Shown piece after piece: positions 48,868 to 63,327 of a DNA stretch of 64,000 nucleotides. This DNA comes from an uncultured bacterium. GTDB lineage: Bacteria; Cyanobacteriota; Vampirovibrionia; Gastranaerophilales; Gastranaerophilaceae. The notes beneath the pieces are model-generated. The model was given only the letters and a program-made list of their open reading frames with translations. It had not been told where the DNA came from and made no database searches. The position numbers were made by a program, and so were the translations under genes. The stretch is taken from NCBI GenBank assembly GCA_949282215.1, contig CASDPF010000010.1, positions 23,905 to 87,904 of the forward strand, written 5' to 3'. How positions within the stretch are numbered: the first letter of the stretch is position 1; every line of letters starts with the position of its first letter.

Positions 48868-49216
48868 AAATAAAGCAGTCGGATAATCGCGCATAAAAAT
48901 GTGAGGAAAGTCCGTGCATTCAAGGACAGACCGCCGGAGAAACTCCGGGCAGCGTGAGCTGGCGGATTAGGACTACAGAAAATATACTGCTAACGGCTTT
49001 ATTTTTAAGTACGAGCGATGGTGCAACGGTGAGTTAAGAGCTTCACCAGCGATATTGAGAAATATCGGCTAGGCAACCCCCGGTCGAATGCAAGATTAAA
49101 TTGAAGGTTATAAAGGCTGTCCGCCCACTTCTAAAAAATCGCTAGAGATTGAGAGTAATCTCAATACCAGACAGATGATTATCTAAAACAGAACACGGCT
49201 TACGGGCTGCTTTATT
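48868..49216 (+). ncRNA. rnpB: RNase P RNA (bacterial type A)
   Basis: The catalytic RNA of RNase P matures tRNA 5' ends. Diagnostic blocks are present: GAGGAAAGTCCGTGC near the 5' end, GACCGCCGG, the AGGGTGCAA-like ATGGTGCAACGG region, CAGCGATATTGAGAAATATCGGCTAGG, AACCCC with GGTCGAATGC, and the 3' ACAGAACACGGCTTACGGGC. The P1 stem is AAATAAAGCAG with CTGCTTTATTTTT at the ends. The U-rich 3' strand of P1 could also serve termination. Confidence 0.96.
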
Positions 49217-49245
49217 TTTTATATTTCATTGCTAATATTCTAACG

Positions 49246-49499
49246 TCTTGAAAAATTTAAAAAATAGTTTAATATAATAATATAAAGATAAATGAACTAA
49301 TCAGGAGGCGAATATGCAAAAATCAAGTATAGATAGAATTTCGGGGGGGGGGGCTACCAACTAACAGTTAAATCAAGCATTTCCGACTTAGACCTCCGAA
49401 GTAAAGAAAAGAGCAGAAAAGTAAGCCGTGCCAAAAGACACGGTGATTTGTGATGCAAAATTTTTGAAAAACAGATAATAAAAATTAACGGAGGATTAA
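49246..49499 (+). promoter_or_regulatory. poly-G leader region, copy 1, upstream of pseudopilin
   Basis: It starts with a promoter-like TTGAAA and AATATA 17 bases apart, then AGGAGG, a 16-codon ORF with an 11-G run (49343-49353), a conserved segment with CCTCCG (49393-49398), a CCGTG/CACGG hairpin (49426-49443), and the pilin Shine-Dalgarno CGGAGG (49489-49494). From 49302 to 49399 only a few bases differ from copy 2, including bases past the ORF's stop. This argues for function as RNA. Confidence 0.75.
49314..49364 (+). CDS. 16-aa leader peptide with poly-G-encoded Gly run
   Basis: An ATG five bases after AGGAGG opens MQKSSIDRISGGGATN and a TAA. The Gly-Gly-Gly is encoded by part of an 11-G tract. 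The same peptide is encoded in copy 2 with a different stop codon (TAG). A change of one G would remove this stop and extend the ORF in another frame. Its translation could control the downstream pilin gene. Confidence 0.6.
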   Translation: MQKSSIDRISGGGATN

Positions 49500-50570
49500 A
49501 TGAAAAAGAGAAACGCATTTACGTTAGCAGAAGTGCTAATAACATTAGGAGTAATCGGAATAGTCGCAGCGATAACACTACCTGTATTAAATCAGGCAGT
49601 AAACAAGAAAGTACGAGCAGAACAGATACGAACAGTCAAGTACAAATTTACGAAAGCAACGGAAAAAATGGCTAGTTTAGGGTTAATAGGCCCGTATGAT
49701 AGTACAGCAGCATTTGTAGCAGAGTTACAGAAACATTTAAAAGTAGCAAAGGTATGCCCGTCAAGTAAACTAAGAGAATGTTGGCCTTATGATACGATAA
49801 CATTACTTGACGGTAAAGAATATGAAGTAGAAAAACTCCAGACAGGTAAGAATTTTCAAATGAAAAACAGCGATAGTGCAGATTATAGCAGTCCGAATGT
49901 AGGTATAATAACAGCAGATGGAACGCCAATGATACTATCCTACAATACCAAATGTGAAGCTTTAGATCCAGTAAAAACTTATGGCTGGTCAACAGAGGAT
50001 AACAAACCCGTATCAAATGCGACATCAAACTGTGTCGCAGCAGTGTTTGAAATAAACGGAAGTAAGAAACCGAATAAACAAAACGAGGATGTAGCTCTAT
50101 TCAATGCAAATGGCTTAGGTTCAAGTTGTGCAATAGAACTGGATAGCGGAAGATGTTTCGGTTCATCATTTACGCCAACCCCAATGACAGAGGCTGAGTG
50201 TGAGGCTCAAAAAGATGTGCTAGGAATAAGAGATTGTCGCTTTAATAATGATTACTGGGCAGGTGCAGTGAAACAATGCGGAGGAGTAAAAAATATGCCG
50301 ACTATGGCTGATCTTGGTAAAATAGCAAGTGCAATATACAAGGGCAATCCAACAGTCGGAGCAGATCAAGATATTTCCAACTTAACCTACGAATCAGGCA
50401 CAGCAACTTCATTAGGTCTTCCAGAACCAACCTTCTCTTTGTGGTCGGATAGAGAGACCTCTGATAGTAATACCAAATTTCGAAGCTTCGCTCCTACATA
50501 TACGATGCACTACAACGTCGATATAAGCCGTAACAAAAGCAATGTACATGCAATTTGTCTTGGTGATTAA
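49500..50570 (+). CDS. type II pseudopilin-like protein with Cys-rich C-terminal domain
   Basis: The prepilin signal is MKKRNA-FTLAEVLITLGVIGIVAA, with Ala in place of the usual Gly before the cleavage site and Glu at +5. A long alpha helix and globular domain follow (to about 205). Residues 229-356 form a second, Cys-rich domain shared with the membrane-anchored protein at 45912. At 356 residues it is large for a pseudopilin, so it may be an adhesive tip subunit. CGGAGG precedes the ATG and can pair with CCTCCG in its leader. It is intact. Confidence 0.85.
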   Translation: MKKRNAFTLAEVLITLGVIGIVAAITLPVLNQAVNKKVRAEQIRTVKYKFTKATEKMASLGLIGPYDSTAAFVAELQKHLKVAKVCPSSKLRECWPYDTITLLDGKEYEVEKLQTGKNFQMKNSDSADYSSPNVGIITADGTPMILSYNTKCEALDPVKTYGWSTEDNKPVSNATSNCVAAVFEINGSKKPNKQNEDVALFNANGLGSSCAIELDSGRCFGSSFTPTPMTEAECEAQKDVLGIRDCRFNNDYWAGAVKQCGGVKNMPTMADLGKIASAIYKGNPTVGADQDISNLTYESGTATSLGLPEPTFSLWSDRETSDSNTKFRSFAPTYTMHYNVDISRNKSNVHAICLGD

Positions 50571-63070: not shown

Positions 63071-63327
63071 AGTCTTGAAAAATTTTAAAAATAGTTTAAT
63101 ATAGTAATATAAAAACAAATAAGCTAAATTAGGAGGCGAATATGCAAAAATCAAGTATAGATAGAATTTCGGGGGGGGGGGCTACCAACTAGCAGTTAAG
63201 ACAAGCATTTCCGACTTAGACCTCCGATTTGACGCAAAAGAGCAGAGAAGCAAGCCGTGCCAAGTGACACGGTGATTTTTGGTGCAAAAAATGTTAAAAT
63301 AAGAAATAGTATATAAACGGAGGATTT
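63071..63327 (+). promoter_or_regulatory. poly-G leader region, copy 2, upstream of pseudopilin
   Basis: This has the same layout as copy 1: TTGAAA/AATATA with 17 spacing, AGGAGG, the 16-codon ORF with an 11-G run (63171-63181), CCTCCG (63221-63226), a CCGTG/CACGG hairpin (63255-63272) whose loop differs, and CGGAGG before the pilin ATG (63318-63323). Conservation is highest from the Shine-Dalgarno to just past CCTCCG and falls off towards the pilin start. Confidence 0.75.
63142..63192 (+). CDS. 16-aa leader peptide, copy 2
   Basis: It encodes the same peptide as copy 1, MQKSSIDRISGGGATN, followed by TAG instead of TAA. AGGAGG lies five bases before the ATG. The 11-G run is the same length as in copy 1. 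Confidence 0.6.
   Translation: MQKSSIDRISGGGATN

Follow-up and report, generated by a model that had tools for sequence, protein, structure and literature searches.

Poly-G runs ahead of about eighty pilin genes in an uncultured Gastranaerophilaceae bacterium: probable phase variation, direct or by way of a leader

About 80 prepilin-type genes in the genome of an uncultured Gastranaerophilaceae bacterium stand behind a long run of G, and the best reading of this arrangement, which we hold to be probable but with considerable reserve, is poly-G phase variation by slippage, direct in one form of the locus (fused form) and through a short leader in the other (window form). A change of one G in the run, most likely made by slippage during DNA copying, would move ribosomes into another frame, so that frames would change mainly through DNA slippage. 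In the fused form the frame of the pilin depends directly on the number of Gs. In the window form, termination in frame 0 would leave CCTCCG free to pair with CGGAGG and hide the ribosome site of the pilin, as folding predicts, and a ribosome in the shifted frame would pass the block, expose the site and turn that pilin on. The consensus state would then be off for nearly all copies in the own genome, and the purpose would presumably be a changing choice of surface pilins.

The window, that is the whole stretch of 64,000 nucleotides that was analysed, carries two copies of the window form (Table 1), with the order promoter, 16-codon leader with 11 G, stop, CCTCC block, hairpin, ribosome site and pilin. 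The elements that the initial annotation had described in the first copy (AGGAGG, the 16-codon ORF, 11 G, CCTCCG, the CCGTG/CACGG hairpin and CGGAGG) were all present. Its promoter-like pair was present as well but alone was at chance level (1 found versus 1.2 expected in shuffles); an exact TATAAT was seen upstream in 64/83 leader copies, compared with 20/83 after shuffling. The -1 frame from 49314 stopped 100 nt beyond the run, and CCTCC lay at +39 from the run in nearly all leader copies. The RNase P RNA (class A) was located at 48871-49218, directly 5' of the leader. A search of Rfam 15 at the gathering score gave no family in the leader, its matches in the window being RNase P and one tRNA only. 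Searching viral_contigs with the leader gave 0 matches, so a viral origin of the leader was rejected.

Table 1 Features of the two leader and pilin copies (window positions)
Feature	Position	Strand	Remark
Leader promoter, TTGAAA (49248-49253) and TAATATAAT (49270-49278)	49248..49278	+	Read from sequence
AGGAGG, ribosome site of leader frame	49303..49308	+	Conserved across aligned copies (n=84)
Leader frame 0, ATG 49314, 16 codons, MQKSSIDRISGGGATN	49314..49364	+	Stop TAA 49362-49364
11-G run	49343..49353	+	Within the 16-codon leader frame
Long leader frame (-1 shift at the run, or one extra G)	49314..49453	+	Crosses CCTCC block and hairpin
Short leader frame (+1 shift, or one G less)	49314..49371	+	Stop at +18
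CCTCCG block, predicted partner of pilin ribosome site or G-run	49393..49398	+	Sequence, folding
Hairpin CCGTG/CACGG, terminator-like on both strands	49425..49444	+	In RNAalifold consensus (84 copies)
CGGAGG, pilin ribosome site	49489..49494	+	Read from sequence
Prepilin-type pilin gene, 356 aa, N_methyl PF07963	49500..50570	+	ATG 49500
Leader frame, second copy	63142..63192	+	Stop TAG
G-run, second copy	63171..63181	+	
CCTCCG block, second copy	63221..63226	+	
Hairpin, second copy	63254..63273	+	
CGGAGG ribosome site, second copy	63318..63323	+	
Pilin gene, second copy, open frame of about 99 aa	63328..63627 (C10:87232)	+	End computed from length

The genome contained 86 distinct runs of at least 8 G, with 8 G in 2, 10 G in 9, 11 G in 68, 12 G in 5 and 13 G in 2. 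Thus the run length, which according to the initial annotation should not be fixed if the run is a switch, varied from 8 to 13 G within the own genome. The same annotation had called an 11-G run very unusual, and such runs were indeed far above chance (0.007-0.03 runs of at least 11 G expected), but with 75 distinct ones they are not rare in this genome. A pilin motif was found at most 360 nt downstream of 80 of the 86 runs; three of the other six were at contig ends (L103, L064 and L069), one was before a Stealth protein (L039), and the last two were L107 and L109. At least 150 N_methyl prepilin-type genes (150 scored of 206 candidates) were counted in the genome of 2.2 Mb. The claim that the leader is conserved was upheld, as the exact 11-G run was found in 22 of the 39 genomes searched, own included, nearly all of the same family (11/12 same-genus relatives, 9/11 from other genera of the family and 1/15 from other families of the order), and the leader recurred in BRZ_P__bin23 and E02__bin124, assemblies of Candidatus Gastranaerophilales, to which the nearest named relatives of this genome belong (19 stretches with 21 matches, 18/21 with 11 G). 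Run length differed by genome, since 29 of the 37 listed runs of G018 had 10 G.

Some G-runs of the family stood in other surroundings. The sampled leaders of G018 (L164, L189 and L332) were of another type, with a separate pilin ATG in 2 of 3. At six loci of G015, which belongs to another genus (L097, L136, L140, L151, L158 and L160), prepilin leaders of great length and repeat-like make-up (stretches such as RHSETPQAGSESV) came after the G-run leader and were kept open in one frame. Non-pilin surface genes were also seen behind G-runs, namely Stealth (L039 by Pfam, L218 and L081 by likeness) and, in relatives, a family 2 glycosyltransferase (L188) and RgpF (L215, of which L101 is an in-frame relative). 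The genes behind the runs are thus of the surface or host-interaction kind that contingency loci usually control (80/86 pilins; Stealth, GT2 and RgpF).

A recognisable leader start was present in 81 window-form copies (59 own and 22 from relatives, mostly the same-genus genome G003), and 54/59 own and 19/22 other copies had exactly 11 G; L091 and L105 were left out of the folding and counts of this class (class A), as were copies in which no start, block or ribosome site could be recognised. Each of the 73 G11 copies examined had its leader start 29 nt ahead of the run, a frame-0 stop at most 20 nt past it, and a shifted frame open past +44, beyond the block. An early frame-0 stop together with an open shifted frame has a chance of 0.25 per unrelated sequence, and the 73 copies are related and do not count as independent trials. 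The open frame was -1 in 70 copies (51 own, 19 others), +1 in 12 (9 and 3) and both in 9 (6 and 3), and in most window-form copies the +1 shift met a stop 18 nt past the run. In the divergent copies L014, L206, L030 and L063 the +1 frame stayed open as far as the pilin or into it, and their +1 reading (e.g., SKHFRL) was similar to the start of fused pilins (L061, SKGFTL), which suggests the fused form as a possible ancestor of the window form.

Copies with other run lengths were also compared. Three of the four own 10-G copies (L108, L111, L112 and L113) kept the early frame-0 end at +18, and L113, the region of which is shortened, had it at +60. L057 had 12 G but one base less before the run, which kept the frame, and the same was true of L300 from G003, a 12-G copy missed by the motif. 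Among the 35 G003 copies picked by the motif, 29 had 11 G, 4 had 12, 1 had 10 and 1 had 9, and in the four 12-G copies the long leader was in frame 0, with stops at 64, 64, 64 and 94.

RNA folding was used to predict what the frame would do to the ribosome site of the pilin. In the preferred footprint model, folding was restricted to the RNA that lies 3' of the terminating ribosome, and the predicted accessibility of the pilin site over 69 copies was 0.03 for frame 0, 0.12 for the +1 stop and 0.61 for the -1 stop; for the window copy the values were 0.00, 0.00 and 0.76. The -1 stop raised the accessibility by more than 0.2 in 62/69 copies, and holding the block single-stranded gave 0.37. When the block-bearing stretch before the hairpin was shuffled, accessibility was 0.45, compared with 0.025 observed (71 copies). 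The first footprint model, in which pairing across the ribosome was permitted, instead favoured the +1 stop (0.11 for frame 0, 0.55 for +1 and 0.17 for -1, 70 copies), and the downstream-only model was chosen on steric grounds, which is a matter of judgement. A leader frame with a hidden downstream ribosome site, as in translational attenuation, is therefore predicted by downstream-only folding, and cross-ribosome folding is against it.

The initial annotation had proposed that the two ribosome sites compete for one block. Pairing with the pilin site was supported, but pairing with the leader start was weaker: among 84 MFE folds, the block was paired with the pilin site in 52, with the leader-start region in only 5 and otherwise in 24 (3 were not scored). 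In ensembles the block paired with the pilin site (0.77) rather than with the G-run (0.16), and the RNAalifold consensus of 84 copies paired the G-run with CCTCC and kept the hairpin; the MFE fold of the window copy also paired the run with the block. The block is thus predicted to pair with either the G-run or the pilin site, which together with the hairpin would make three mutually exclusive pairings. Compensatory changes in the hiding helix were looked for among the 84 copies and none was found, not one double change of block and ribosome site; both hardly vary, so covariation, which had been proposed as a check, was uninformative. Unusual stability of the leader was rejected, as no excess over shuffles was found (z -1.46 and -0.39). 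The proposed slippage switch through CCTCCG and CGGAGG was borne out in part, in that the anatomy and the predicted hiding of the pilin ribosome site both fit it. The genome-wide repeat, the fused form and the regularities of frame were outside what the initial annotation had described.

In the fused form, a short start frame with its ribosome site contains the run, and the gene downstream lacks a start of its own that is backed by such a site. Sixteen of the 19 own fused loci carried one G more than the downstream frame allows, at run lengths from 10 to 13 alike, and need one G fewer or a +1 shift; L104 and L110 had one too few, and L037 was in frame. A weak inner TTG was found in L037, the sole own fused locus with such a start, and L016 had just 19 nt, without a start codon, between the run and the mature pilin. 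A change of one repeat unit thus alters the frame of the gene itself at these 19 loci and only the frame of the leader in the window form.

We then counted fused loci in all genomes fetched: among 242 runs of at least 9 G, 207 had a leader, 89 of these had a long downstream frame, and 65 were without a backed inner start. The frames of the 65 were +1 in 46, -1 in 12 and in frame in 7 (16, 1 and 0 in the own genome; 30, 11 and 7 in others), or +1 in 17, -1 in 7 and in frame in 4 of 28 clusters; this count is mechanical, 12/65 came from the exact-11-G sample and the other relatives from the first loci per genome, and some long frames (G015, G009 and G004) may cross intergenic repeats. A +1 shift kept everywhere was rejected, because 19/65 loci differed. 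All three frames were present among fused homologs, and inside families the frame moved with run length. For example, L144 with 10 G was in frame and its family members L097, L136 and L151 with 11 G were out by one, and further examples are L085 (11 G) against L221, L226 and L249 (12 G) and L230 (9 G) against L233 (11 G). Homologous loci were therefore in both on and off states, as judged from their frames. Proteins with the two parts joined in frame were also present in the database: relatives of L037 had GGGG ahead of the pilin motif in 10/12, in a sample that is biased because the query itself is in frame, and among six relatives of L016 with at least 75% identity, 3 were called only from an inner Met, 2 had GGGG in frame and 1 had another start. 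In ortholog pairs with G003, the distance between ATG and the last G of the run was kept in 4/5, and the G count differed in two of those four, a pattern that a base change at the edge of the run would give.

Free switching would not be expected to leave the off frame so uniform (46, 12 and 7 among the 65 fused loci, and 4/5 ortholog pairs). Furthermore, the window form piles up one G short of the predicted on state and the fused form one G over, and these opposite sides are not explicable by a single slippage bias. mutS was intact (874 aa, 935.7 bits), so slippage is expected to be slower, and missing mismatch repair was rejected as a cause. Owing to these three points programmed recoding stays alive, although we consider it rather unlikely; in that case the genome sequence would be constant, the run would act as a permanent slippery site where either the ribosome (+1, Gly-GGG) or RNA polymerase slipped with a set frequency, and each pilin would be made in small, limited amounts. 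Recoding would agree with the frame being kept rather than the G count, since 13/23 fused loci without 11 G were still +1 (p 0.02 versus 1/3) and the frame was kept in the ortholog pairs mentioned above, as well as with the excess of +1 over -1 (46 to 12 loci; 17 to 7 clusters, p 0.06) and the depletion of in-frame loci (7/65, p 2.5e-5; clusters 4/28, p 0.02), where the p values by locus are too small since copies are related and the cluster counts are given beside them. In addition, frame 0 stopped soon after the run in +1 fused loci (median 3 codons, versus 7.5 in the -1 frame, p 0.005). However, the 19/65 loci that were not +1 and the change of frame with run length inside families speak against recoding, as does the stop 18 nt past the run that the +1 shift hits in most window-form copies. 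A Gly tRNA reading four bases was rejected, as the Gly tRNAs among 44 tRNA matches (UCC, CCC and GCC) had ordinary 7-base anticodon loops, and no bacterial poly-G recoding element was found in the literature searched. A bolder version, which is likewise rather unlikely, is a new recoding-based gate of this Gastranaerophilaceae-like family, in which slippage of ribosomes or RNA polymerase at a fixed poly-G site would meter about 80 pilin genes singly and the commonest form would be a three-way RNA switch; the G-run, the anti-ribosome-site block and the pilin ribosome site would compete, and the frame after the run would decide pilin synthesis.

The folding of the G-run onto CCTCC, with the hairpin kept, in the consensus of 84 copies and the run-block pairing in the MFE fold of the window copy would also suit attenuation without slippage, which we regard as improbable. 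The leader peptide and three exclusive pairings (G-run/CCTCCG, CCTCCG/CGGAGG and the hairpin) would form a translation-sensing switch in which the Gs act both as a strand for pairing and as rare Gly codons, whatever their exact number. The higher share of 11 G in own window-form copies (54/59, versus 11/19 in fused loci, Fisher p 0.002) agrees with this, but ensembles prefer the pilin site to the run, frame does matter at the fused loci, whose runs are of the same kind, and the switch has no known ligand or signal. The G-run might also act as DNA, for instance as a G-quadruplex that drives recombination among pilin copies, in the way that the pilE G4 of Neisseria drives pilin recombination. 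Leaders were more alike (mean identity 0.77) than their pilins (closest paralog, identity times coverage, median 47%), as recombination would have it, but the kept frames and the frame-0 stops are left unexplained, donor and expression sites were not apparent, and we give it very little credence. Phase variation by slippage remains the reading that we prefer.

The pilin itself is variable at its end. In the 356-aa pilin, the last 45 or so codons (window 50430-50567) were hypervariable at scattered positions between fixed residues among 82 aligned homologs, and the entropy over these homologs averaged 2.31 bits at residues 321-340, compared with 0.2-1.3 elsewhere before residue 320. A similar pattern is seen in targets of diversity-generating retroelements. 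A search of the own genome for a template copy of the variable end (E 0.001) found none, the only matches being three pilins at C10, C21 and C28. Elsewhere, at L337 (G000:C6, near 58711), a reverse transcriptase gene (452 aa) adjoins a protein with a Ser/Tyr-rich, variable-looking end; this region looks like a phage-type diversity-generating retroelement, without a match to the pilin end.

With about half of its at least 150 prepilin-type genes behind a putatively frame-gating G-run, this genome would have a surface repertoire gated gene by gene on a very large scale, in a gut lineage that is common and uncultured. The arrangement escapes gene callers, which either start a fused pilin at an inner Met or leave it out. 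The leader family also offers dozens of natural replicates for asking whether poly-G frames are set by DNA, RNA polymerase or ribosomal slippage. In the open-licence literature we found no description of G-tracts or phase variation in this lineage, nor of a repeated leader that would convert frame into ribosome-site exposure at such scale.

Poly-G/C contingency loci are found in Neisseria (pilC) and Campylobacter, and the loci described here share with them a G homopolymer placed within or close to the 5' coding part of genes for the surface, with the frame presumably deciding expression; unlike them, a single leader type stands before dozens of paralogs, nearly all off by the same frame. In erm-type leaders, translational attenuation depends on a drug-stalled ribosome. 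The leader here is similar in its short frame, its hidden downstream ribosome site and the predicted position of the ribosome as the deciding factor, but the proposed decision is the frame past the G-run and not a drug-stalled ribosome. As described in a GeneTack survey of frame transitions, the causes of which include phase variation, poly-G and translational coupling (PMC3711429), prfB (+1) and dnaX frameshifting also have a frame-0 stop near the slippery site and one favoured direction; unlike these, the run here is a long run of G and the frame is inconstant in families. The closest published likeness is the G-tract phase variation of sortase-dependent pilus genes in Bifidobacterium breve (PMC9187656), also a gut commensal, in which a G-run (10-12 in B. 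breve) lies between the start frame and the pilin frame, the recorded length is off, joining needs -1+3n and the second frame has no active start. B. breve has 1-2 pilus clusters per genome and another pilus type, compared with about 80 prepilin-type genes per genome here, and most loci here differ in having a separate leader and a hiding block, with the pilin keeping its own start. Poly-G phase variation itself is thus already known; what would be unusual here is its scale, together with the leader-switch variant.
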